The translations under genes and the position numbers were made by a program. A DNA stretch of 42,678 bases. Source: a virus. The notes under the pieces were generated by a model, which did not search any database, was not told the DNA's origin, and worked only from the letters and a program-made list of their open reading frames with translations. The stretch spans positions 1 through 42,678 of IMG/VR virus record IMGVR_UViG_3300009285_016193; one strand, 5' to 3'. Each line of letters opens with the position of its first letter. Positions within the stretch are counted from its first letter, which is position 1. Positions 3,946 to 39,603 of this stretch are shown one piece after another.

Positions 3946-4228
3946 AGCACGGCTCCTTCGGGAACTGTGTGCTCTCGGATGGAGCGAGTCCGAAGTTTTT
4001 CGTCTTGGGCTTCGGGCATTGCATGATGGAAACTTTAAGATAAAGCGAGCACGCGCTACCCGAGTCGAAATGGAGGCACGTGAGAAAGGCGCTACCGTAT
4101 CTCCAGGACCACCTGAAAATCCAGAAGATGCGTGTCGTATAAAAGGTGGCGAGGTACTGGTCAAAGACGACGGCACAAAAGAGTGCCACGTTCAAAATGG
4201 TGCGCTTGAGGAGATTTATGCTATATAA
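3902..4228 (+). CDS. ribbon-helix-helix-like DNA-binding protein
   Basis: From ATG 3902 the protein has 108 residues. A strand (TIKISIRINE) is followed by two helices (EARLLRELCALGW and SESEVFRLGLRALHDGN), which is the ribbon-helix-helix layout of Arc/MetJ/CopG-type repressors. The C-terminal half is charged and probably disordered. An earlier start at 3857 would add a segment unlike the family. Overlap with the previous gene suggests coupled expression. The gene ends on the -10 box of the next transcription unit (4224-4229), so self-regulation of the following RNA element is conceivable but unproven. Confidence 0.6.
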   Translation: MEGTIKISIRINEFEARLLRELCALGWSESEVFRLGLRALHDGNFKIKRARATRVEMEAREKGATVSPGPPENPEDACRIKGGEVLVKDDGTKECHVQNGALEEIYAI

Positions 4229-4670: not shown

Positions 4671-4718
4671 ATGAAAGAAAAAACAATCGGCAAACTAATT
4701 AAGAGAACGTGGGTATGA
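4671..4718 (+). CDS. 15-codon upstream ORF coupled to the first glycosyltransferase
   Basis: ATG 4671 reads MKEKTIGKLIKRTWV and stops in a TGA that overlaps ATG 4715 as ATGA. That arrangement recurs at many gene junctions here, so this mini-ORF may serve for translational coupling or as a leader peptide. It is too short to be sure it is made. Confidence 0.3.
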   Translation: MKEKTIGKLIKRTWV

Positions 4719-6202
4719 ATAACCTAGAAGAAGAGATTTTGAATGAATTTGATGAGAAATTCCCAAACCCGCTTTATGATGAAGCACAGATAGGAAGTCC
4801 TACAGCTAATACACCTATAAGATTTTTCATCTCTCAATCCCTTGCCCGCCAAAAACAAGCCTTTATAAATAAGGTGGAGGGGAAAAGATTACCAGACAAA
4901 CAAGGATATTATGGACCATACGATACTAAAAAAATGAAAACAATCGGCATTCTCACAACTTTTTATTCCATTGACCCCGCTTATTCACTTTGCTCTGTCG
5001 TATTGGACCAACTCCGTGCTCTGGTAAAATACGAATACAAAACCGTCCTTTTTGTCCTTCCCGCATTTGAAGATCCCGAGCATCTTATTCCGGAAGGAGT
5101 CGAAGTCCGAAAGATTGTGCCGCAACTGATACTCGAGCCGTACAAAGAGTTCAGCTATCCAGCTCATTGGAAAGAAGACGTCGAAAAAGCGAAAGGCATG
5201 TTCGAGAAAAACATGCAGGATATAGATTACCTTATTTGCCATGACATATTTTTCATCGATACCTTTCTCCCTTATAACATTGCTCTCCGCGAGTCTAACT
5301 TGTCTTGCCGAATATTTTCGTGGATACATTCCGCCCCAAGCTCTCGCCCAGTTCTCGATAATAACCCTCACGCTAACCGTTACACCCTACCTCCTCGGAC
5401 TACTCTCATTTATCTCAATAACGACAAAGCTAATGAATTAGCAGAAATGATGGGTTGTTGGCTCAAGGATGTGCGCGTGGTCCCGAACTCGCGCGATGTC
5501 CGTGGCTTCTGGAATCTACATCCTTTGGTTGAAGACTTAATCGAGCGTTATGATCTTTTAGAAGCCGATATAATCTCTGTCTATCCTCTTTCCACGCCGC
5601 GAATGATTGCCGGCAAAGGATTGGATAAGGCAATCAAGCTTCATTCAAAACTAAAAGAACTTGGTTACAAAACTAAACTTATCGTTCCGAACGCGCACGC
5701 AAACGCAAAACGTGATAAAGGCACGGTTGCCGACACGATGGTATGGGCTGCGGATCGAGGCATTACGCCGTACGACCTCATCTTTACGTCACAGCAAGAC
5801 CCGCCGCGCTACGAACATGGCGTTTCTCCCAAGATTGTCAGTGACTTGTTTAGGATCTCGAACGTCTTCATCTTTCCAACTGTCAGTGAGAATAGTTCCC
5901 TCGTCCTCTTAGAAGCCATGCTGTCTGGCAATTTGCTTGTCCTTAATAAAGCTGTTGGAACACTCCGTGAACACGCTGTTGAAACAGCATTATACTTCGA
6001 CTTTGATTACCGGCATGACAAGGAAGAAAATGAACGCTACTATCTTGACCTTGGCAAGATAGTCGCCTCGCAATTCGAACAAATGAAACCCTTGCAGGCA
6101 AAGCGTCGAGCGCTGCAACGGCATTCGTATGATTATATATTTAAACATTTTATAGAACCTTTATTTTTTGAAAATGAATCAGCAACAACGAATCTTCCGT
6201 AA
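4715..6202 (+). CDS. GT-B glycosyltransferase (GT4-like)
   Basis: From ATG 4715 the protein has 495 residues. The first 75 or so form a charged extension with no counterpart in compact GT4 enzymes. The GT-B fold starts at MKTIGILTTFYS (codon at 4934). The C-terminal donor-binding half carries the E-x7-E motif (SENSSLVLLEAM) preceded by FIFPTVSE and followed by LVLNKAVGTLREHA, as in retaining GT4 enzymes using nucleotide sugars. It opens the nine-enzyme cassette. The start at 4709 (GTG) is less likely because 4715 is coupled to the upstream mini-ORF. The acceptor is unknown. Confidence 0.8.
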   Translation: MNNLEEEILNEFDEKFPNPLYDEAQIGSPTANTPIRFFISQSLARQKQAFINKVEGKRLPDKQGYYGPYDTKKMKTIGILTTFYSIDPAYSLCSVVLDQLRALVKYEYKTVLFVLPAFEDPEHLIPEGVEVRKIVPQLILEPYKEFSYPAHWKEDVEKAKGMFEKNMQDIDYLICHDIFFIDTFLPYNIALRESNLSCRIFSWIHSAPSSRPVLDNNPHANRYTLPPRTTLIYLNNDKANELAEMMGCWLKDVRVVPNSRDVRGFWNLHPLVEDLIERYDLLEADIISVYPLSTPRMIAGKGLDKAIKLHSKLKELGYKTKLIVPNAHANAKRDKGTVADTMVWAADRGITPYDLIFTSQQDPPRYEHGVSPKIVSDLFRISNVFIFPTVSENSSLVLLEAMLSGNLLVLNKAVGTLREHAVETALYFDFDYRHDKEENERYYLDLGKIVASQFEQMKPLQAKRRALQRHSYDYIFKHFIEPLFFENESATTNLP

Positions 6203-6314
6203 AGTTATCAAACGTCGACGGAAACGAGTAGGACATTTACTTTGGGAAAAACAAAATCCTCATAACATTCGACCCCGCAAAAAACTTAAAGCGAAAAAGA
6301 AAAAACATGTCTAA
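6174..6314 (+). CDS. 46-residue very basic protein overlapping both neighbours
   Basis: ATG 6174 lies inside the end of the glycosyltransferase gene, and the frame ends at 6314, inside the start of the SDR gene. The product is dominated by Lys and Arg (it contains KRRRKR and ends KKKKHV) with a short hydrophobic centre. It fills the only gap in the cassette exactly. It could be a nucleic-acid-binding peptide, or merely coupling translation across the gap. No family is recognised. Confidence 0.4.
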   Translation: MNQQQRIFRKVIKRRRKRVGHLLWEKQNPHNIRPRKKLKAKKKKHV

Positions 6315-7233
6315 AATTCTTATCACTGGAAATCGCGGATTCATAGCTTCAAAACTCGAAACGCGCCTTGCGTCTCTTGGCCACGAAGTCCATGGCTACG
6401 ACATTGTGGACGGCAAAGATTTATTGATCCTCGGCCAGCTTGATGCTTCTATTCGGGCCGTCGATGTTGTCTATCACATTGCGGCGCAGGCCGACCTTAC
6501 AAAAATGCAGGATATTGAAGAGGGACATCGCGGGGTCCGGGCAAACGTCGAAGCAACGGATAACGTCGCGTTTTTATGCGCGAAGTACCACAAGCGTTTA
6601 ATTCATGCTTCCACGGTTTGCGTATACGGAAATACAAAAACGTATCCTGAAGAAGAAGACACAACGTTGCCGAATCCGTCTGAACTTTATGCTTGTTCAA
6701 AATACGCTGCAGAGTGGATTATCAAAGGCTACGGCAAGAACTTTGGCCTTGACTGGACCATTCTTCGATTCGCTACTATCTACGGCGAAGGCATGCGACC
6801 GGCGCTTGGTATGTACATCTTTTTCAAACAAGCAATGAAAGGAGCGCCCATAACAGTGCACGGCGACGGAAAGCAAGATCGGACTCTTACTTATATTGAT
6901 GACCTCGTAGATGGGCTTGTCCTTGCACTTGATCAAGGGAAAGGTGAAGTTATAAACCTTACCGCGGAGGAATCAATCTCCGCAATTCGCATGGCGCATA
7001 ACATTGCATCAGTCGTAGGCAACGCTGTTCAAATACAATTTATCGATCAACGTCCAAACCAAACCATCCATGAGGATTTTTCAACGGAAAAAGCCCGGGA
7101 GATTCTCGGGTGGCGTGCAAAAACGTCTTGGGAAGAAGGACTCAAACAAACGTTTGAGTGGATGAAAACACAGGTCGAAATCCCGAATCAAATTAAAGGA
7201 CAAGGAAAAGAACATGTCTCCCCAACTCAATAA
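6307..7233 (+). CDS. NAD-dependent nucleotide-sugar epimerase/dehydratase (extended SDR)
   Basis: The 308-residue protein has the N-terminal glycine-rich NAD(P) motif (GNRGFIA, residues 8-14), Ser102-Thr103 before VYGNT, and the catalytic Tyr128-x3-Lys132 (YACSK). The HIAAQ strand and TYIDDLVDGL segment are typical of GalE/RmlB/Gmd-like extended SDRs. It would epimerise, dehydrate or reduce a nucleotide-activated sugar in the cytoplasm. The exact reaction cannot be read from the sequence. It overlaps the next methyltransferase gene by 20 bases, so the two are likely co-translated. Confidence 0.85.
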   Translation: MSKILITGNRGFIASKLETRLASLGHEVHGYDIVDGKDLLILGQLDASIRAVDVVYHIAAQADLTKMQDIEEGHRGVRANVEATDNVAFLCAKYHKRLIHASTVCVYGNTKTYPEEEDTTLPNPSELYACSKYAAEWIIKGYGKNFGLDWTILRFATIYGEGMRPALGMYIFFKQAMKGAPITVHGDGKQDRTLTYIDDLVDGLVLALDQGKGEVINLTAEESISAIRMAHNIASVVGNAVQIQFIDQRPNQTIHEDFSTEKAREILGWRAKTSWEEGLKQTFEWMKTQVEIPNQIKGQGKEHVSPTQ

Positions 7234-8065
7234 AAAATGCGAAGTTTGCCAAGCGCCTATTCCGGACGACTTCGGCAATCTTCTCTGCATGCAATGTTAT
7301 GAAAAAACTACCAATTCTGTTTCTGTCAGTGGAGGAATTCAAGTCAATGAATCAGGCATTTCGGATCCGGAATATCAAGAAAATCCGGAGGTTCCCGAGA
7401 TTGACATGGTTACGCGCGCTCACGGCCGTTTCAAAGGCACGGGTTGGATAATGCCGGAGTCACAAATCGTCCTCTACAAGGCGCTTAAAGATTGGATCCG
7501 GAATGAATGCGTAACAAAGAATGTTCAGTTCCCAAAGTTTATCTGGAAGCCCAAAGCCGTTGACGTTGGGTCCGGACTTGGCATTGGCACGAACATTTTA
7601 TCACAGGAGTGTGATTATATTCTCGGTATTGATAAAAACGAAGAAAATGTTCGCTGGTCCGAACAGATGTTCAAACGAGAAAAAAACAACATATATTGGT
7701 CGCCGCAAATTGATTTTATGTTTGTGGACGTGGTAACGGACACTCGAGAGTTCATGAAATTTGATATGGTATTTTGCATCGAAGTCATCGAGCATCTCAA
7801 AGAGTTCAAACCACTGTTTGAGTTCTTGAAGAAACTCGTAAAACCCAATGGCATAGTGTGGATTTCTACCCCGAATCGTGCGGCATGGGCCGGAGAACCA
7901 CGATCAAAGACGCCATTGAATCTTAATCACGTCAGAGAATACACCAGCGACGAATTTAAACAACTTCTTGAATCAAACGGCTTCAACAATATCGAGATGT
8001 ATAATTGTAACCTTGAACCGGCGCTCGTCGCAGATACACCGGTTATCGCAAAATGCCATGTGTAG
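7214..8065 (+). CDS. class I SAM methyltransferase with N-terminal zinc ribbon
   Basis: The first 30 residues hold a four-cysteine ribbon (Cys9, Cys12, Cys25, Cys28). The methyltransferase core follows, with motif I VDVGSGLGIGTN (116-127), an acidic residue at the end of strand 2 (ILGIDKN) and a motif-III-like EVIEHL segment. This layout is common in methyltransferases of polysaccharide loci. At 283 residues it looks complete. The substrate is probably a sugar or glycan, by context. It overlaps the asparagine synthetase homologue by eight bases. Confidence 0.8.
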   Translation: MSPQLNKKCEVCQAPIPDDFGNLLCMQCYEKTTNSVSVSGGIQVNESGISDPEYQENPEVPEIDMVTRAHGRFKGTGWIMPESQIVLYKALKDWIRNECVTKNVQFPKFIWKPKAVDVGSGLGIGTNILSQECDYILGIDKNEENVRWSEQMFKREKNNIYWSPQIDFMFVDVVTDTREFMKFDMVFCIEVIEHLKEFKPLFEFLKKLVKPNGIVWISTPNRAAWAGEPRSKTPLNLNHVREYTSDEFKQLLESNGFNNIEMYNCNLEPALVADTPVIAKCHV

Positions 8066-9374
8066 TATCGCAGGATCAAAAAATCCTGATAGGGTAGGAA
8101 AGATGCTCGACATAATGAAGCATCGCGCGCCTGATGGATCCCAATACAATTACTCTCCGAATTTTACAATCGGCATGGGACGTCTTGCTATAATTGATCT
8201 CGAATCACCGGATTTGTTTCCTATTGTAGACGGCAAATATACTCTTTCTTTCAACGGTGAAATTTTCAACTATCTGGAATTGAAAAAAGAACTTGAAGAT
8301 CTCGGACACGACTTCCGGACAAAATCCGATTCGGAAGTTCTTTTGAAAGCGTATCAGGAATGGGGCACGGGTATGTTCGATAAGCTGAACGGAATGTTTG
8401 CTTTTGCAATCCACGATGGCGAGTCAATTCTTCTTGCTCGGGACCTTGCCGGCGAGAAACCGCTTTATTTCTGTGAAGATCCATTTGAGTTCGCCTCGGA
8501 AGCAAAAGCGCTCAAAAGAAATGACTGGAAAGAGTTGTCGGCCGGAGGATGTCTTCAATATGATATTGCCCGCAAAACTATTACCACCTTTCATTGGTGG
8601 CAGCTTGAGGAAGTAGAGATAAAAAATCCGGAAGAAGAATTAGAGATTCTTTTTGAGGACGCCATAAAAATTCGTACACGATCCGACGTTCCCTATGGGC
8701 TTTACTATTCAGGCGGCGTGGATTCTTCCCTTATTGCCGCGTTTCACAATTTTGAACATAAATTTACCTATAAAGACGGAAATTACAAAAAAGAATTTGA
8801 GAATGTTTTTGAAAAAATAGTATGGCACCTTGATTATCCGATACAACATTTCTCCGCGTTCGGCTTATGGAAGCTTGCGGAGGAAACACGTTCAAAAGGA
8901 GTCAAAGTTATTCTTTCCGGTGAAGGCGCTGACGAGCTTTTCGGCGGTTACATTCGGTATCTGCCGGAGGCGCTTTACGAACAGGCACAAAATAAGTTTC
9001 CTTCTTACAAAACAATGTTTCCGGTTGTGGAACGCCTGCATAGAAAGCGCTGGCGTGAGTTCCGAGGTAATCTGCAGGAACTTTTGCGTATGGCCGATCG
9101 TATGTCTTCTGCTTTTGGAATCGAAACGCGATGTCCATTTCTTGATAAAAGAATTGTGAATTTTGCTTTCTCGCTTCCAATGAAATATATCATTGATGGG
9201 TTTGATACAAAGGTAATTTTGAAACGGATTCTAAAAAAGAGAAATCCGGATTGGCAGGACTTTGAGAAAACCGGACTTTATGTTTCGGTAAATAAATGGT
9301 TTGGTGTGACCGACCCATATGACAAAACACAATACATAACACGCCAAAAAGAAATATGCAAAAAGTTTCGATAA
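8058..9374 (+). CDS. asnB: glutamine-dependent asparagine synthetase homologue
   Basis: Starting at ATG 8058, Cys2 becomes the N-terminal nucleophile of a class II glutaminase domain (MCSIAG, then HRAPDG and FNGEIFNY). The C-terminal synthetase domain has the PP-loop SGGVDSS and the downstream LSGEGADELFGGY motif. At 438 residues it is shorter than the roughly 550-residue E. coli AsnB, mostly in the C-terminal part. Homologues in surface-glycan clusters amidate uronic-acid sugars rather than aspartate. Its place between a methyltransferase and a glycosyltransferase suggests that role. A longer start at 7968 would bury the nucleophile and is rejected. Confidence 0.85.
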   Translation: MCSIAGSKNPDRVGKMLDIMKHRAPDGSQYNYSPNFTIGMGRLAIIDLESPDLFPIVDGKYTLSFNGEIFNYLELKKELEDLGHDFRTKSDSEVLLKAYQEWGTGMFDKLNGMFAFAIHDGESILLARDLAGEKPLYFCEDPFEFASEAKALKRNDWKELSAGGCLQYDIARKTITTFHWWQLEEVEIKNPEEELEILFEDAIKIRTRSDVPYGLYYSGGVDSSLIAAFHNFEHKFTYKDGNYKKEFENVFEKIVWHLDYPIQHFSAFGLWKLAEETRSKGVKVILSGEGADELFGGYIRYLPEALYEQAQNKFPSYKTMFPVVERLHRKRWREFRGNLQELLRMADRMSSAFGIETRCPFLDKRIVNFAFSLPMKYIIDGFDTKVILKRILKKRNPDWQDFEKTGLYVSVNKWFGVTDPYDKTQYITRQKEICKKFR

Positions 9375-10045
9375 TCTTCACTCATTGGGCGCAAAATCCC
9401 GAGCGCAGTATCATGTCTCGATACTCTATTGAATCTCTTTTGTGCTCGTTGAAGAATCCCGTTGAGATAATTGTTGTTGATAACGGCGGCAGTTTTGACG
9501 ACAGTATCTACTTCCTCAAGCTATGTGAAGAAAAAAGAATTACTCACTACATAAGAAACGCCGACAATCTCAATTTTTGCTATGGCTACAACCAAGCATT
9601 AAAGCTTGCGTGGGGAGATTATTTTGTGCTTGCGTCAAACGATCTTCATTATCAGAGAGAATGGCTCGAGGCGTGTCTGAAGGTTTTTGAACATTATCCG
9701 GATGATAAACTGATTGTATCTCCGCTCGACTATCCGACAAATATCCTTCGGCAGAAGTACCATCAAGGCACGATCAACGTCGCGGGAAAGGATTTTAAAC
9801 TTTCGATGCGTGCCGGATCGAACTGTTTCGTGATGAAGCGAAGTACCTATGAAGAAATTGGCGAGTTTGATCTTGATCCTATGGCAGGGTCAAAGTATAC
9901 CGATAGGCTTGTGCGGGCCGGCTACCTTACCGCGGTTCCGCCCACAAATATGGCGATTGACCTCGGGCTACGCCGAGGATTCGACTTCAAAACGCCTTTT
10001 GAATTTAAAAAAACTTTAACCGACGGAACAACTATTGCATTATGA
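9356..10045 (+). CDS. GT-A glycosyltransferase family 2-like
   Basis: The 229-residue protein begins with the GT2 signature strand (VSIIFTHW) and has EIIVVDNGG for the nucleotide-binding aspartate. A metal-binding acidic residue is plausible in FVLASNDLHY, where the canonical DxD is degenerate (SND). It is compact and lacks membrane segments, so it acts in the cytoplasm on a soluble or membrane-presented acceptor. The gene overlaps its upstream neighbour by 19 bases and its downstream neighbour as ATGA. Confidence 0.75.
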   Translation: MQKVSIIFTHWAQNPERSIMSRYSIESLLCSLKNPVEIIVVDNGGSFDDSIYFLKLCEEKRITHYIRNADNLNFCYGYNQALKLAWGDYFVLASNDLHYQREWLEACLKVFEHYPDDKLIVSPLDYPTNILRQKYHQGTINVAGKDFKLSMRAGSNCFVMKRSTYEEIGEFDLDPMAGSKYTDRLVRAGYLTAVPPTNMAIDLGLRRGFDFKTPFEFKKTLTDGTTIAL

Positions 10046-10590
10046 TTAAACGAAATCCACTACATTTTACGCCGCATCTTGAACGCTACGTGTTTGCTTC
10101 GAATTATGTATGGAGAAAGGACGTAATGGATGCCGGATCAAAAGACGGATACGGTTCCCACATCATAAGCTATTTTGCGCGTTCAATCACACTGGTAGAT
10201 AGCAGAAAAGATTTTATCGTAAAAAGTCGGTACTTCAATTTCTTTTGTCCGACAGAAAATATCATTTGCGATTTTGAAAAATCGTTCCCACAAGGACAAT
10301 GGGACGTGATCATTGCTTTTGAGATTATCGAACATCTCGAAAACCCCGACTTCTTTCTTGAAAACGTCAAAAAACACTTATCACCCGGCGGCATCCTTAT
10401 TTTTTCCATTCCCCATGAAGCAGTTGCAGACGGTCACAAACATCTATATAACGAAGGGCAAGCGAAAAAATTGATAGAATCCCATTTTAAAATTTTTGAA
10501 TGGTACAAACAAGATAAAAGCGTCATCGCAGGTCGCCCGATGCTTCAGGTCCCCACGCCTCTTACCTATGTGGGAGTTGCAACACTATGA
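10042..10590 (+). CDS. class I SAM-dependent methyltransferase
   Basis: This is a 182-residue, single-domain methyltransferase. Motif I is VMDAGSKDGYGSH, strand 2 ends in LVDSRKD, and the motif near DVIIAFEIIEHLENPD is followed by the typical LSPGGILIFSIPHE strand-turn. No zinc ribbon is present, unlike the cassette's other two methyltransferases. By context it modifies a sugar or glycan. It is joined to both neighbours by ATGA overlaps. Confidence 0.8.
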   Translation: MIKRNPLHFTPHLERYVFASNYVWRKDVMDAGSKDGYGSHIISYFARSITLVDSRKDFIVKSRYFNFFCPTENIICDFEKSFPQGQWDVIIAFEIIEHLENPDFFLENVKKHLSPGGILIFSIPHEAVADGHKHLYNEGQAKKLIESHFKIFEWYKQDKSVIAGRPMLQVPTPLTYVGVATL

Positions 10591-11459
10591 TAAAAGTAAT
10601 GGTCACTGGGGCTGCGGGGTTTTTGGCCCATCACTTAATTAAAGAACTTCGATCTCGGGGATATTTTATTGTTGGCGTTGACAAAAGACCAATTCCCGCA
10701 AACCACGAATTGCCCGATTTGTTTTTGCAAACTGACGTAAACGATTTAAAATTTAGAGATCTTATAGGGATTGAAGACGTGTATCATTTTTCGTGGCGTA
10801 CCAACATTCCCGATTGTTCTCGTCATCCCGAGGAGTCAACCCGTGACAATATTATAATGTCAATACACATGCTTGAGGTTGCAAAAGAAGCCGGAGTGAA
10901 AAAGTTTCTCTTTCCTTCCACCGCTTCTTTGTACGGAAATAATCCAACACCGTGGACCGAAGATATGGAGCCGGATCCTCAAGAAATGTACTCATGGCAA
11001 AAGCTTTCGATCGAATACGCCTGTAAGATGTATGCCAAAATGGGACTTCCAACTGCGGTTTTTCGCTTTTTTCAAGTGTTCGGCGAGCACCAACGCGAAG
11101 ATACTGCGCTTGCGGCGTTTATAAAAGCAAAAAAAGAAGGACGGCCGATCACTCTTACAGAAACAACAGCTCAATCTTCGTTTAAATCCGGACAGCGAGA
11201 CTTCGTTTATGCAGGAGATGTTGCAAACGCCGTGTGTATGGTAGCCGAATCTGACATTGGAGACGGTTCGATTTTCAATGTTGCATCAGGAAACTTTTAC
11301 ACAATGGAAGAAATCGCCGATACAATGGGGGCGGACGTAATGTGGGTTCCTCGCAGGGGCTATGAAGTCGAGAGGCACTGGGGTTCTATAAAGAAGATAC
11401 AAAAACTTGGGTGGTCGCCCAAGACCGATGTTATTAAATGGATAAAAGAAAATATATGA
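10587..11459 (+). CDS. NAD-dependent nucleotide-sugar epimerase/dehydratase (extended SDR)
   Basis: The second SDR of the cassette has 290 residues. The glycine-rich loop is GAAGFLA (8-14), STAS precedes LYGNN, and the catalytic pair is Tyr135-x3-Lys139 (YSWQK). The substrate-binding half contains FRFFQVFGEHQ and RDFVYAGDVANAV. The family acts on UDP-, GDP- or dTDP-sugars. The next gene is a deoxysugar C-methyltransferase homologue, so a dTDP- or CDP-deoxysugar route is an attractive but unproven reading. Confidence 0.85.
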   Translation: MIKVMVTGAAGFLAHHLIKELRSRGYFIVGVDKRPIPANHELPDLFLQTDVNDLKFRDLIGIEDVYHFSWRTNIPDCSRHPEESTRDNIIMSIHMLEVAKEAGVKKFLFPSTASLYGNNPTPWTEDMEPDPQEMYSWQKLSIEYACKMYAKMGLPTAVFRFFQVFGEHQREDTALAAFIKAKKEGRPITLTETTAQSSFKSGQRDFVYAGDVANAVCMVAESDIGDGSIFNVASGNFYTMEEIADTMGADVMWVPRRGYEVERHWGSIKKIQKLGWSPKTDVIKWIKENI

Positions 11460-12685
11460 GAAACTGTAGAATATGCGGCGCGGACGATTTTAAAACCGTT
11501 ATCGATTTCGGCGAGAGTCCTCTCGTCAATAGTCTTTTGACGGAAGAAGAAATCGTAAAACCCGACGAGACGTATCCTCTTCTTGTTGAACAATGCCAAT
11601 CATGCTTTTTGGTTCAGATCGTAGAGCCGATCGGCGGCCAAAGGATCTACCGGAACCAAGACTATTTATACTATTCCGGTGATATGCCCGGACTCAAAGA
11701 ATATTTTGAGAAGTTTTCCAATGAATTACAATCGCTTATTATTCAGGATTTTTCCACGCCGTTCATTGTTGAAATAGGATCAAATGACGGCCTCATGTTG
11801 AATCAATTTCGACACAAACAGGTTCGTATTCTCGGCGTTGATCCCTCATCAAACGTAGTTGTTCGAGCGCTCAAAAATGGTATTCCGACTATTTCCGATT
11901 TCTTTTCCGAACGCCTTGCAAAGAGTATCGAGAAAGAAATGGGGAAGGCAAAACTCATCGGCGGAGCAAACTGTATCGCGCATCTTGACGATCTTCACGA
12001 TTTTGTTCGCGGGGTGAATGTACTTCTCGATTACAACGGCGTTTTTTGGATCGAATGTAATTATTGGGGAGGGATGGTGAAAAACAAAAATGCCGCGCTT
12101 ATATACCACGATCATTTTTCTTATTTTACTCTTCAAAATTGGATCGATTTCATGGGGAACAAAAATTTTCAAGTGTTTGATGCTTACGTCACTCCAGCTC
12201 AAGGCGGATCTCTTCGAATCTTCATCGACCGTGGTAAAAGGCAAGTGACTACTCGGATGAAAATGCTTCACGATGAAGAAGTGTCTTCGAATCTCAATTC
12301 GTATGAGACAGCCGTACAATATGAAAAGGATGTCCGGGAAGAGGCAACCAAACTTCGAGCCGTTATCGACAAGATAAAATCTGAAGGAAAAACGATCGCC
12401 GGGTACGGAGCAGCCGCAAAAGGTTTTTCCGTCTTACAGCTTGCGGGTATTGGCGCCCAACACATCGACTATTTTGTAGATGACTCCCCGGCAAAACAAG
12501 GAAAGTTCACGCCGGTGCATCACATTCCGGTAATTTCTCGAGAAGAAGCAGAAGAGAATTTTCCGGACTACTTCTTCATCACCGCGCCAAACTATGCGGA
12601 TGTCATCATAGCAAAAGAAAAAGAAAGGTGGGATTCCGATATAAAGTTTATTCTTGTAACCGGAGAAATTATCTCGACAAAATGA
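11456..12685 (+). CDS. deoxysugar C-methyltransferase-like protein (TylC3/NovU type)
   Basis: The protein is 409 residues from ATG 11456, the usual length of this family. It has the N-terminal four-cysteine zinc domain (Cys4, Cys7, Cys47, Cys50), a SAM-binding core (EIGSNDGLML), the family's YHDHFSYF segment, and a C-terminal Rossmann-like domain (GYGAAAKGFSVLQLAG, then DYFVDDSPAKQGKF). Relatives add a methyl carbon to C3 of dTDP-4-keto-deoxysugars in antibiotic and O-antigen pathways. This suggests that the phage makes a branched or methylated sugar. Start and stop both overlap neighbours as ATGA. Confidence 0.85.
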   Translation: MRNCRICGADDFKTVIDFGESPLVNSLLTEEEIVKPDETYPLLVEQCQSCFLVQIVEPIGGQRIYRNQDYLYYSGDMPGLKEYFEKFSNELQSLIIQDFSTPFIVEIGSNDGLMLNQFRHKQVRILGVDPSSNVVVRALKNGIPTISDFFSERLAKSIEKEMGKAKLIGGANCIAHLDDLHDFVRGVNVLLDYNGVFWIECNYWGGMVKNKNAALIYHDHFSYFTLQNWIDFMGNKNFQVFDAYVTPAQGGSLRIFIDRGKRQVTTRMKMLHDEEVSSNLNSYETAVQYEKDVREEATKLRAVIDKIKSEGKTIAGYGAAAKGFSVLQLAGIGAQHIDYFVDDSPAKQGKFTPVHHIPVISREEAEENFPDYFFITAPNYADVIIAKEKERWDSDIKFILVTGEIISTK

Positions 12686-22519: not shown

Positions 22520-23953
22520 CTACGATCCCGTTATCGATTGCGGATAGTTATTCGGATTCACCCGAGCAAATCCCCACCCACCAGGTGTTGTCCTGTAATC
22601 TTTTATTCTCCCATGCTGCGAAGATTGCTTTGTGGAATATTTTCCTTCAAGCTCTTTTATCCCACGCTCGTATTTTGCGAGCAGTTCTTTTGCCTTTTCG
22701 TCTTTATTAAGCCCGGGCGCAAGATCAGCGGCAGCTCCCCATACAAGAACATCAGGTTCTGGAACCGCGGTGCGGTCTTGAGTATCAAGCAAATCCGTAG
22801 GCTCAACATGACACGAATATACAATATCTCTTTCAGTAATTGTCGTGGTATTAGTATGAGTCGCGGCGGTCGTTCCCTCCATTCCGCGTCGTAGACCGGT
22901 GAATGTCGTTGTGGTTGACGCAGTAGCATAGATCACCTCGCTATCAATAATGAAACGGTAGTAATCTCCCCGGTTAAATCCCGAAGTTGCGGTAACCGTT
23001 ACCGAAGTAGCCGTCGCCGTAATCCCGGCAACATCATTGATTGTCGTAGTTTGCGCAGCTGACGCTGGCCGCGGATACACCTTGATCTCCCTATTCCATA
23101 TATTGAAATGCGACGGGTCCGCAGAGGTTTGATCCGTATCCCAATGAAGCGCATCCCATTCAGAACGCGGCACGTCAACCAATGGCTGTGTGTCAAAGCT
23201 TATGGTATGGGCTTTTTGTACGGTTGAAGGAATGGCGTAACGAAACTGATTTGCGACCGAAGAAAAACTCCGCTCATCTTCGTAAAAACTCCACAAACGC
23301 ACATGCGCTATGTCACGCTGTTTATCGTTTAGCGCTTCATCAATTTCTCTATCTTTCAACTTTGATGATGTACGAAATTCATCAAGCGCTTTCCTTACTT
23401 TTCTCCGAAGCACCCAGAGAGTACGCGAGTCATACGAAGATCCTTCTCCGGCGGCTTCGTAATTTACCCCATCGGAATATGAAGAGAAACCGCCAGATGT
23501 TTGATTGTTGAAACGGATAAATCCGTAACCAGTGGTATTTGTCGTATCTTCATAGATAGTAAATTCTTTATTTGCTTCAACTAATTGTGTCGCAAGAACA
23601 GAAACTCCAGAAGTAGAATCCGTAGTATTACGGCTGAACTCAACCCGGTTAAAATCAACGCGATATACCGGTTCTCCAATCGCATGGACAAACCTTGCAC
23701 CACCAGCGCCCAACTGATCTATAGTAAGCGACGTGCCGTCGGACGCAGTCGCGGCCATTTGCAAAACTTCCGCGTTCGAAGACCCGATTTCTCCAACAAT
23801 TATATAGGTATTGTCCGACCACAAAGACCCTGAACCAACATCCGCATTGACTCCGGCAACCGTAAGGGTGGTACCGGCAACGGCAACGGCCGCCGTAAGA
23901 TACGTTTTTTCCCTGTCTTCTACTAAAAGCCTATTGTTTGCTTTGAACAACAT
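22520..23953 (-). CDS. head-tail adaptor-like protein (T7 gp11/P22 gp4 type) with inserted beta domain
   Basis: The 477-residue product has a helical core typical of adaptor proteins (residues about 180-240: RRKVRKALDEFRTS, then EIDEALNDKQRDIA) followed by a beta stretch and a C-terminal basic helix and tail. The N-terminal 150 residues and a segment at about 300-360 are beta-rich, Thr/Ala-rich insertions resembling those in the next gene. This suggests a shared modular beta domain. Its place directly before the nozzle-like gene supports the role. Confidence 0.55.
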   Translation of the reverse strand: MLFKANNRLLVEDREKTYLTAAVAVAGTTLTVAGVNADVGSGSLWSDNTYIIVGEIGSSNAEVLQMAATASDGTSLTIDQLGAGGARFVHAIGEPVYRVDFNRVEFSRNTTDSTSGVSVLATQLVEANKEFTIYEDTTNTTGYGFIRFNNQTSGGFSSYSDGVNYEAAGEGSSYDSRTLWVLRRKVRKALDEFRTSSKLKDREIDEALNDKQRDIAHVRLWSFYEDERSFSSVANQFRYAIPSTVQKAHTISFDTQPLVDVPRSEWDALHWDTDQTSADPSHFNIWNREIKVYPRPASAAQTTTINDVAGITATATSVTVTATSGFNRGDYYRFIIDSEVIYATASTTTTFTGLRRGMEGTTAATHTNTTTITERDIVYSCHVEPTDLLDTQDRTAVPEPDVLVWGAAADLAPGLNKDEKAKELLAKYERGIKELEGKYSTKQSSQHGRIKDYRTTPGGWGFARVNPNNYPQSITGS

Positions 23954-37020: not shown

Positions 37021-37079
37021 CCGTGAAACATGTTTCACGGTGTTTCACGGTGTTTCACGGCGTTAAACATCGTGAAACA
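37021..37079. repeat. TGTTTCAC repeat cluster with perfect 20-bp palindrome
   Basis: CCGTGAAACATGTTTCACGG (37021-37040) is a perfect palindrome. The ten-base unit TGTTTCACGG then repeats at 37031, 37041 and 37051, and an inverted copy GTGAAACA follows at 37072-37079. TGTTTCAC equals a half-site of the bacterial ParB site parS, but here the halves are joined in the reverse order. An iteron or repressor operator is equally possible. No ParB gene is seen. Confidence 0.8.
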
Positions 37080-37127
37080 TTCAGACCATAAAAAACTACC
37101 GCATACATACGCTATAATATACGATAG

Positions 37128-37151
37128 TTCGCTTAATAATCATTATGCGAA
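37128..37151. repeat. imperfect inverted repeat TTCGC...GCGAA
   Basis: TTCGCTTAATAATCATTATGCGAA reads nearly the same on both strands; the two 12-base halves differ at two positions. A TATAAT hexamer lies just upstream (37113-37118). It may be an operator in the control region. Confidence 0.5.
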
Positions 37152-37166
37152 GTATCCTAACAACCC

Positions 37167-37183
37167 CGTGAAACAGTTTCACG
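37167..37183. repeat. second GTGAAAC palindrome
   Basis: CGTGAAACAGTTTCACG is a perfect 8+1+8 palindrome built from the same GTGAAAC/GTTTCAC elements as the cluster at 37021-37079, about 90 bases away. It is probably bound by the same protein. Confidence 0.75.
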
Positions 37184-37197
37184 CAAATTTCGGGGGC

Positions 37198-37338: not shown

Positions 37339-37422
37339 AATTTATTGTCAAGGAATTTTGTGTTTTTAAAGCCAAAACGGAAGTCAAGTTAAAAATCGCC
37401 TCAAAACCCTTGACAATAAATT
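37339..37422. repeat. 15-bp perfect inverted repeats flanking the early promoter
   Basis: AATTTATTGTCAAGG at 37339-37353 is the exact reverse complement of 37408-37422. The right copy covers the -35 box of the rightward promoter. The left copy gives a TTGACA facing left, with only a weak TCTAGT -10 at 18 bases. They could be operators for one regulator or a divergent promoter pair. Confidence 0.75.
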
Positions 37423-37438
37423 ATAAAGAGAGTATACT
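37410..37438 (+). promoter_or_regulatory. strong sigma70-type promoter of the rightward early operon
   Basis: TTGACA (37410-37415) and TATACT (37433-37438) are 17 bases apart, close to consensus. The transcript would start near 37445 and has a leader of almost 190 bases before the first ATG at 37633. Confidence 0.8.
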
Positions 37439-37832: not shown

Positions 37833-38165
37833 ATGACAAACACCAGAGATTTGAGCACGTTCGGAAATAGGGAATGCGAGATGGCGGCAAAGTTATTAAG
37901 CGCATACCAAAACGCGGACAAGTGGGAGGGAGAAAACAATCTATCGGACGGCGTAGCGGTTGAGTTCAATCCTTCATCGGGGAATGTTTTTCTGGTTGCT
38001 GACGATTTCAGTGTCGCCATGTTCAACGGAAGCGACAAGCTTGAAATGCTTGTATCGTGTAGCAACTGCGGCGCGGAGGGTTTTATAAGTGAAGATGGCG
38101 ACCTCGCCGCTATCGCGGAGCATGGACAATGTAAGCCATGCGTTGAAAAAGAAGCAACGGCGTAA
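37833..38165 (+). CDS. small protein with C-terminal zinc ribbon-like cysteines
   Basis: From ATG 37833 the protein has 110 residues. The C-terminal part contains two CxxC pairs (CSNC and CKPC) 22 residues apart, a zinc-ribbon spacing. The N-terminal 70 residues are a mixed alpha/beta region. A longer frame at 37665 would overlap the membrane-protein gene and is rejected. Host-factor or nucleic-acid binding is possible. A structured RNA element starts directly behind its stop. Confidence 0.6.
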   Translation: MTNTRDLSTFGNRECEMAAKLLSAYQNADKWEGENNLSDGVAVEFNPSSGNVFLVADDFSVAMFNGSDKLEMLVSCSNCGAEGFISEDGDLAAIAEHGQCKPCVEKEATA

Positions 38166-38172
38166 GGGCTTG

Positions 38173-38218
38173 GCTCTTGACTATGCGCCGCGCTGGTCGC
38201 GGCTCATAGATGAGGGGC
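38173..38218 (+). ncRNA. structured intergenic RNA element, copy 1
   Basis: GCTC-TTGA (38173-38180) leads into a stem of CTATG and GCCGCG with CGCGGC and CATAG (38181-38192 with 38198-38209, one mismatch, loop CTGGT). ATGAG-GGGC follows (38210-38218), where GGGC pairs with GCTC. Copies 2 and 3 at 38579 and 39550 share the TTGA and ATGAG sides. This copy lacks the loop sequence for the pseudoknot. The downstream tag ATGGTCGGC is shared with copy 2. Confidence 0.55.
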
Positions 38219-38270
38219 TGAATGGTCGGCGGCTCACTCAACATTAAAAAATAACAGCAAAGCAAAAATC

Positions 38271-38579
38271 ATGAGCAATAAAACAACAGCGCGCGAGGTT
38301 GCGGTTATGGACGCGTCAAGCGGAAGCGTATCACTCCACATATTGCCGCAGTCGGTGAGGACGGCGGAGGACTTGGAGGATTACATTCACTTGACGCTTG
38401 AGGTGGGGAGCGACAGCGATTGGATAGCGGCGGAGAAGATTGTGCTATCGGACTTTCGCATTAAAAATCCGAAGCGGTGGAGTAGGAAGGGCAGGTGTCC
38501 GTCTTGCGGAGTGTCGACAGGTTCGCGGCACGGCAAGAGTTGCAAGCCGCAGGCGGCGGGAACGGGTGCGAATAGATAG
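38271..38579 (+). CDS. hypothetical early protein with CxxC motif
   Basis: The 102-residue protein begins with a beta-rich part (REVAVMDASSGSVSLHILP) and a helical centre. Its last quarter is basic with CPSCG and a later Cys, suggesting an incomplete zinc site. Proteins with this N-terminal phrase seem to recur in phage genomes, but no function is known to me. RNA elements flank it on both sides. Confidence 0.55.
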   Translation: MSNKTTAREVAVMDASSGSVSLHILPQSVRTAEDLEDYIHLTLEVGSDSDWIAAEKIVLSDFRIKNPKRWSRKGRCPSCGVSTGSRHGKSCKPQAAGTGANR

Positions 38580-38636
38580 CTCTTGATATTGCCGGTAAAG
38601 GTCGCAAGAGCGTCTTTATCGGCAATAATGAGGAGC
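38579..38636 (+). ncRNA. structured intergenic RNA element, copy 2 (pseudoknot-capable)
   Basis: It starts on the last base of the upstream stop codon. GCTC-TTGA (38579-38586) leads to a 13-bp stem, ATTGCCGGTAAAG (38588-38600) with CTTTATCGGCAAT (38614-38626). ATGAG-GAGC (38628-38636) closes it by GCTC/GAGC pairing. The loop carries CAAGAGC (38605-38611), which can instead pair with the leading GCTCTTG over 7 bp as an H-type pseudoknot. A GCGGC-GCGA-GCCGC hairpin follows. The two pairings exclude each other, which is switch-like. Confidence 0.6.
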
Positions 38637-38691
38637 TGGGCGGCGCGAGCCGCATGGTCGGCAGTTCCGAAGGATTAAAAATAATAAAATC

Positions 38692-39270
38692 ATGTTGTAT
38701 AATTCATTAAACATCGAGGTTGCCCGTTTCGCGGACAAGTCGGAGAGACGACCGGAGCTTGCCGCCGTGTTTTTCAAAAAAGACATGGTTGTAGCTACGG
38801 ACACTTTCCGCTTGCTGGAAATATCCACGCCCGCGAATGTGAAGCCGGAAGAATTTCCGGACGCCATGCGCGGCTTCTCTCCATTTCTTGTGGACGCGCG
38901 AGCGGTGTCAAAACTCAAGATACCGAAGCATAAGACATTGCCAGCGCTTGAGTACGCGGCGATAAAACATCTTGATAAGGACAACGCGACATTCCTGACG
39001 GTTGACGATACGCTATCGCAAAGTACAACAACGGCGCGAGTTGTTGACGGCACGTTTCCGGATTACGAAGCCATATTCCCATCCGGCGCGCCGGTTCTTG
39101 AAATAACAATCAATGGGAAGTTACTCGCGGAATTGCTGAATACGCTGTCAAAGCTCAATAAAATGTCGAGCGTAAAATTAAAACTATACGGCACGGAAAA
39201 GCCAATCGCGCTGTTTGCGGAAAACGATACGCAGAGGGCGCGGGCGCTTTTGATGCCGGTAAGGGAATAA
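38692..39270 (+). CDS. truncated DnaN-like sliding clamp
   Basis: The 192-residue protein matches the pattern of bacterial beta clamps, but only in part. Residues about 10-45 (ERRPELAAVFF...VVATDTFRLL) follow the start of clamp domain 2 with its TD-x-x-RL groove residues. DGTFPDYEAIFP follows the domain 2-3 border. The end (ALFAENDTQRARALLMPVRE) matches the MPxR groove strand at the clamp C-terminus. Domain 1 and apparently the first half of domain 3 are missing (DnaN is about 366 residues). It may form an unusual ring, or bind clamp clients without circling DNA. Confidence 0.7.
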   Translation: MLYNSLNIEVARFADKSERRPELAAVFFKKDMVVATDTFRLLEISTPANVKPEEFPDAMRGFSPFLVDARAVSKLKIPKHKTLPALEYAAIKHLDKDNATFLTVDDTLSQSTTTARVVDGTFPDYEAIFPSGAPVLEITINGKLLAELLNTLSKLNKMSSVKLKLYGTEKPIALFAENDTQRARALLMPVRE

Positions 39271-39354
39271 TTTGACATCTGCCGGAAAACGACGCTCTAT
39301 AACGCCCTAGGACGAAATTAAAAAAGGTCGGACGATACATTATACATAAAATGT

Positions 39355-39376
39355 AACTGACGCTGATAGTGCGTTT
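39355..39376. repeat. 22-bp direct repeat, copy 1 (intergenic)
   Basis: The 22 bases starting AACTGACGCTGATAGTGCG are repeated exactly at 39498-39519. This copy lies just upstream of the ATG at 39391; the other is inside that same gene. The repeat contains ACGC...GCGT arms. It may be a protein-binding site or trace of a duplication. Confidence 0.85.
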
Positions 39377-39390
39377 TACGCGAAACGAAA

Positions 39391-39549
39391 ATGAAAAAAT
39401 ACATAGTAACGTTTACCGGTAGCGCGGATGTCACGGCGAAAAATGAAGAAGAAGCAATCGAGGAAGCGGGATTTTTCCTGTTTGGGGATTCCGGAAAAAC
39501 TGACGCTGATAGTGCGTTTCAATTGATGAGTGTGGAAGAAGTGGAATAA
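39391..39549 (+). CDS. 52-residue hypothetical acidic protein
   Basis: ATG 39391 opens a frame with a beta-strand start (MKKYIVTFTGSADVTA) followed by an acidic helix (KNEEEAIEEAG) and an acidic end (SVEEVE). The layout resembles small phage proteins of the 'MKxYxVxxxGxxxVxAxxxEEAxxxA' kind that recur without known function. The gene contains copy 2 of the 22-bp repeat, and a structured RNA element starts right behind its stop. Confidence 0.55.
   Translation: MKKYIVTFTGSADVTAKNEEEAIEEAGFFLFGDSGKTDADSAFQLMSVEEVE
39498..39519. repeat. 22-bp direct repeat, copy 2 (inside the 52-residue gene)
   Basis: Exact copy of 39355-39376. Here it encodes TDADSAF near the C-terminus, so the identical DNA is kept in both a coding and a non-coding setting. 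Confidence 0.85.
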
Positions 39550-39603
39550 GCGCTTGACCCTGCTCATTTGCCGCAAGCGCACAAATGGGCAGAGATGAGG
39601 CGC
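39550..39603 (+). ncRNA. structured intergenic RNA element, copy 3 (pseudoknot-capable)
   Basis: It begins directly after the stop codon. GCGC-TTGA (39550-39557) leads to an 11-bp stem, CTGCTCATTTG (39560-39570) with CAAATGGGCAG (39582-39592, one G-U). ATGAG-GCGC (39595-39603) closes it by GCGC/GCGC pairing. Loop CAAGCGC (39574-39580) can pair with the leading GCGCTTG over 7 bp as a pseudoknot. The T-to-G change in the leading strand is matched in both partners, which is covariation against copy 2. Confidence 0.6.

Follow-up and report, generated by a model that had tools for sequence, protein, structure and literature searches.

The RNase III signals of the T7/T3 early region (R0.3, R0.5, R1, R1.1, R1.3) are the closest working analogy for the RNA elements described here. 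The likeness lies in several intergenic hairpins of 40-60 nt per operon, placed directly behind stop codons, and in a helix defect between the lower and the upper stem. T7 R1.1 is described as an RNA of 60 nt from between genes 1.0 and 1.1, its internal loop being asymmetric (4/5 nt) (PMC6121014). In T3, four of the five annotated early-region RNase III stem-loops start 0-19 nt past a stop codon, and all five end 20-37 nt before the next gene. In the element UUGA and AUGAG set 4 bases against 5, but by covariation most of these are paired. It differs from the T7/T3 sites in its longer upper stem and in a loop heptamer that changes with the 5' arm of the same copy.

Other described structures resemble it in part. 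Integron attC sites likewise conserve structure over sequence, carry an extrahelical base and lie behind stops in gene orientation; the element, however, has no core sites, no integrase was seen, and attC has no counterpart of the heptamer. In bistable or cotranscriptionally refolding RNAs one strand also has two exclusive partners, the first being available before the second is transcribed. The element differs from these in being multicopy behind stops, with no recognised expression platform and with a plain subtype that has no alternative partner. As in an H-type pseudoknot, the loop pairs with a segment outside the hairpin, and with covariation, but in the element the 3' arm is a second partner of that segment, and the linkers are only 1, 3 and 1 nt long.

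Three copies in one phage operon

How does the locus itself look? The DNA analysed, called the window below, is the 42,678-base IMG/VR virus record IMGVR_UViG_3300009285_016193, positions 1 to 42,678. Three copies of one element had been predicted there, and all are present exactly at the predicted positions (Table 1). Chance would give 0.02 matches to CTTGA-N20-50-ATGAGGNGC in the window; there are 3, all on the + strand and inside 1.4 kb, and 0 of 100 shuffles reach 3. Without its flanks, TTGA...ATGAG is at the chance level in the window (13 vs 12.5 expected), thus the signal is carried by the flanking GCNC/GNGC stem. The trimmed copies 1, 2 and 3 fold better than shuffled sequence (z of -3.9, -7.1 and -4.7). 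As claimed, the outer pair covaries among them, and they begin at or just after stop codons, at 7, -1 and 0 nt past the stop.

Table 1. Features of the window around the three elements
Feature	Position	Strand	Details
Sigma-70-like promoter	37410..37438	+	TTGACA-17-TATACT, read from sequence, ahead of the operon
ORF ahead of copy 1	37833..38165	+	L121 homologue 79% identity; an element follows there too
Copy 1, plain subtype	38173..38218	+	GCUC-UUGA, AUGAG-GGGC; 7 nt past stop of ORF 37833-38165; inner stem with 11 pairs plus one mismatch; loop CUGGU
ORF between copies 1 and 2	38271..38579	+	
Copy 2, strand-exchange subtype	38579..38636	+	5' arm GCUCUUG 38579-38585; inner stem 38587-38601/38613-38627; loop 38602-38612; 3' side AUGAG-GAGC 38628-38636; overlaps final base of the TAG stop of ORF 38271-38579
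Copy 2 loop heptamer CAAGAGC	38605..38611	+	Complementary to 38579-38585
DnaN-like gene (DNA polymerase processivity factor) behind copy 2	38692..39270	+	L121 homologue 50% identity
Short ORF ahead of copy 3	39391..39549	+	
Copy 3, strand-exchange subtype	39550..39603	+	5' arm GCGCUUG 39550-39556; inner stem 39558-39570/39582-39594; loop 39571-39581; 3' side AUGAG-GCGC 39595-39603; immediately 3' of the TAA stop of ORF 39391-39549
Copy 3 loop heptamer CAAGCGC	39574..39580	+	Complementary to 39550-39556; co-varies with 5' and 3' arms

The genes of the window include a terminase, a P22-like portal, a head protein, a SNF2/HARP helicase, a CHC2 zinc finger, an exonuclease and the DnaN-like protein. 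In the phage collection, the element region has no neighbourhood match, and the terminase and the helicase have no match at 60% identity or above. The operon had been called early; it may be so, judging from the sigma-70-like promoter, the replication-type genes and their common orientation.

Some other features of the window should be mentioned. Ahead of the operon, window 37023-37186 carries repeats of GTGAAACA/TGTTTCAC, of which the palindrome GTGAAACATGTTTCAC at 37023-37038 is one instance. The half-sites resemble those of bacterial parS in the opposite arrangement, and the repeats may serve as operators, an origin or a partition site. An exact 21-bp direct repeat, ACTGACGCTGATAGTGCGTTT, is found at 39356-39376 and 39499-39519, one copy lying ahead of the short ORF 39391-39549 and the other within it. 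Elsewhere in this 42.7-kb phage record, a block of about 8 kb (4709-12685) holds sugar-type genes: glycosyltransferases, NAD-dependent epimerases, asparagine synthase and methyltransferases.

Relatives in other phages

Does the element occur in other genomes? A pattern scan of IMG/VR gave at least 119 stretches; among the matches listed, the inner hairpin is present in the records L121, L101 and L062, while most others are without it. A scan demanding the loop complement gave the same three records and two stretches without the hairpin. L121 belongs to a related phage, which shares the gene ahead of copy 1 and the DnaN-like gene; an element lies between them, preceding the DnaN-like gene as in the window. 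Near the elements of L101 and L062 no homologue of either gene was recognised.

A covariance model, R1, was built from five long copies. It recovered the short copies and added L101 4506-4560, L121 2477-2531 and, weakly, L121 1025-1089. In 380 Patescibacteria genomes R1 gave two matches, on contigs of 79 kb and 84 kb; this set was reached via a genome titled Patescibacteria, and binning errors are possible for the two contigs. A second model of ten sequences, R2, added L272 9391-9448, a second element on one of the two. Phage genes surround the element on both contigs, namely a terminase in both and a portal and a major head protein in one. Both have a Sak4-like protein upstream of the element and an O-like replication initiator directly downstream.

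In all there are 12 strong members and one weaker. They come from six records, of which one is the window, three are further IMG/VR contigs and two are the phage-type contigs in Patescibacteria genomes. The window has 3 elements, L121 3-4, L101 2 and L272 2. A lack of further instances with compensatory changes would have counted against the original prediction; the element does recur with such changes in other phages, several of them unrelated to this one.

The distribution is nevertheless patchy. The element is absent from phages sharing a window gene (L207/L208) and from relatives of the gene that the two L101 elements enclose (21 records, four pattern matches included), so the element comes and goes. 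The 198 Bacteroidota genomes contain zero elements. A DNA pattern gave 47 stretches in GTDB genomes, the inner hairpin being found in none. Scanning for the GCGC variant brought up no convincing match, and BLAST of single elements against phages gave short weak matches only. A covariance match at window 23328-23393 (E 0.004) lies within a 477-aa ORF and was taken as chance; L047-type matches were rejected as they overlap ORFs and their fold is unlike the element.

The class had not been recognised in the original prediction, in agreement with Rfam 15, which gave no gathering match in the window. At lax thresholds, searches of the window and of the L121, L272 and L101 stretches gave no match on the elements. 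No description of the element was found in open-licence papers.

On the - strand of L121, at 3138-3075 and 2480-2420, a second leader hairpin is seen with a conserved GATAGTCGTAAG[G]CCGGAC, followed by an A-rich stretch and ATG. At L121 3138 it is fused to the 5' half of the element (GGCTCTTGACTATG), which suggests recombination between leaders.

Hairpin structure

The long stems were said to be unrelated in sequence and yet paired, and this holds across the family: of 20 pairs, 15 have changes on both sides, and 97.4% of the cells pair. Over these pairs in ten members, covariation scores 0.70; shuffles give 0.20 and slid versions no more than 0.18. Fitting the ten-row alignment to the model tilts it towards this outcome, but a five-copy MAFFT alignment gave the same result. 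The comparison supports a hairpin of about 20 pairs with a bulged A kept at the base of the inner stem, and the element is almost certainly a structured RNA family.

Is UUGA opposite AUGAG a conserved internal loop, as originally thought? Only in part. Most of these bases appear to be paired (U·G, U-A or C-G, A-U), and what remains of the loop is a constant bulged A (A59; numbers here are alignment columns) and usually a G·G mismatch. Note that U10-A63 becomes C-G in two members, which argues against an open loop. Position 11/62 is mostly G·G, with G·U in L101 4506-4560 and G-C in L121 2477-2531 and L272 9391-9448. The lower stem is short in several members (4-6 pairs).

Two partners of the 5' arm

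In copies 2 and 3 the loop heptamer can form 7/7 Watson-Crick pairs with the leading GCUCUUG and GCGCUUG respectively, as had been noticed. This pairing is not family-wide: the heptamer is missing from copy 1 and its relatives, which make up the plain subtype. Eight members belong to the strand-exchange subtype; their loop, of 10-11 nt, includes a heptamer able to pair with the 5' arm. Loop and 5' arm pair in 48 of 48 cells of the ten-row alignment, and 2 of the 7 pairs change on both sides; L272 9391-9448 adds three compensated positions. When loops were swapped among members, the observed fit was matched in 48 of 40,320 orders.

The common 5' arm is GCUCUUG. It has three variants, GCGCUUG (copy 3), GCUCUCG (L271 5601 and L272 10121) and GCUUCCG (L272 9391), and each time the loop and the 3' arm have changed along with it. 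Such joint change is seen in three lineages, and one strand therefore keeps two partners. As the arm sequence varies between copies of the same genome, it is the pairing that is kept and not a DNA motif. The match to the loop is perfect (7/7) in six of the eight members, while that to the 3' arm is only 5/7 Watson-Crick in seven of the eight. A 3-bp mini-hairpin is possible within the loop in most members; it explains part of the loop conservation, but not that of copy 3 or L062. Although the evidence comes from only eight strand-exchange members with kinship among them, a 5' arm with two partners is very probably under selection.

Can both pairings exist together? The original prediction proposed an H-type pseudoknot competing with the outer stem. 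The competition stands, for the 5' arm pairs with either the outer 3' arm or the loop. The simultaneous pseudoknot looks sterically implausible: linkers of 1, 3 and 1 nt, as read from the sequence, surround stems of 7 and 11-15 bp, and by an estimate from these lengths the full pseudoknot would be strained. In minimum free energy folds with a growing 3' end, which describe equilibrium and not kinetics, the 5'-arm/loop hairpin is transient in all eight strand-exchange members. It has about -9 to -13 kcal/mol, and the long hairpin that displaces it about -28 to -38. A transient cotranscriptional strand exchange is likelier than the full H-type pseudoknot.

Placement behind stop codons

For 12 of the 13 members the start lies within -1 to +9 nt of a stop codon, an interval that takes in 2-4% of positions. 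The distance from the element to the next long ATG ORF is not fixed (11-341 nt). Three phages have one gene flanked by both subtypes, with the plain copy ahead of it and the strand-exchange copy behind it (window ORF 38271-38579, L121 ORF 2094-2426 and L101 ORF 4052-4471). There are several copies per operon, none of which has a terminator-like T run in the stretches that were read. Stop-codon readthrough was considered and rejected as the reading frames past the stops are not kept; so was AUGAGG as a start codon, its AUG missing in several members.

Discussion

What might the element do? Our best explanation takes the copies as one family of RNA elements that act in cis and lie in the spacers between cistrons of phage replication-type operons. 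During synthesis of the RNA, the 5' arm would pair first with the loop heptamer. The inner stem would then close, and the 3' arm would capture the 5' arm and displace the transient hairpin. The finished long duplex may be an intercistronic processing and insulating signal, most likely of the RNase III type as in T7/T3, which would separate the adjoining cistrons and leave a hairpin on the upstream message. Because a terminating ribosome would cover the 5' arm, the exchange could couple duplex formation to translation of the upstream gene. We give this full explanation a probability of about 0.42.

On analogy with T7/T3, RNase III-type processing as the main role is put at somewhat less than an even chance. 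Folds of T7 at the cut positions of the literature agree with hairpins. Against this reading, an RNase III site needs no loop heptamer matching its own 5' arm, and the lower stem is short in several members. Moreover, the T7/T3 sites match neither R1 (no E below 0.75) nor R2 (no E of 0.01 or less), so membership is not claimed. It may be added that T7 R1.1 and the loop of an L101 element (4019-4029, -) share an 11-nt string (UCGCAAGAGUG / TCGCAAGAGTG), which may be convergence on a GCAA-type loop.

One alternative is a two-state regulatory switch, in which a ribosome terminating on the upstream gene, or a ligand, sets the partner of the 5' arm and the next gene is controlled without processing. 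The 7/7 match to the loop against 5/7 to the 3' arm looks like a tuned balance, and the 5' arm lies within the footprint of a terminating ribosome, taking the generally known size of that footprint. However, the plain subtype has no heptamer, the next start codon lies at no fixed distance, neither a sequestered start site nor a terminator was seen, and there is no conservation like that of a ligand core; we consider such a switch unlikely, if worth keeping in mind. The bulged A and its A-U neighbour are invariant, and both subtypes keep the G·G mismatch as well as the U·G wobble. These features would suit recognition of the bulged A, the adjoining A-U and the lower stem by a phage or host RNA-binding protein (antiterminator, repressor or stabiliser), with the heptamer as modulator. 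This reading is rather improbable, as no candidate protein was found in the window and the element is absent from phages with common neighbouring genes.

Might the structure act as single-stranded DNA? An attC-like or transposon-end-like recombination site for the exchange of small-gene cassettes would fit the placement, always in sense and behind a stop, the conservation of structure rather than sequence, and the gene order, which differs between the window and L121 by the extra ORF 38271-38579 between two window elements. It is nonetheless very improbable: the ends are GCNN...NNGC with no GTTRRRY/RYYYAAC core, no recombinase was found among the subset of ORFs whose proteins were scanned, the loop heptamer has no counterpart in such sites, and there are few copies per genome. 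A small self-cleaving ribozyme is scarcely credible as well. The size is compact and the loop pairs with the 5' arm, but unpaired invariant bases are few, the plain subtype has no loop pairing, and no Rfam ribozyme matches even at lax thresholds. An HDV-like core does not fit, as had been stated, since P3, P4 and J4/2 are missing. A K-turn was rejected too, the bulge being one nucleotide and not three.

The element might be called a variant of known processing hairpins, by analogy with T7/T3; if the exchange itself proves to be what it does, a separate class would be warranted. Such a class of strand-exchange switches would be found in phages of Patescibacteria and perhaps of other hosts, and a terminating ribosome would mask or free the 5' arm, deciding during transcription on cutting or on expression of the next gene. 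This is a speculative and doubtful proposal.

What does the finding mean? The element is an RNA family absent from Rfam 15, with unusually clean evidence for one strand that has two partners. If the exchange is functional, it would be a compact model of cotranscriptional refolding beside a terminating ribosome. Patescibacteria are hard to culture and little studied, and the element, if this proves true, would give a first handle on post-transcriptional control in their phages.
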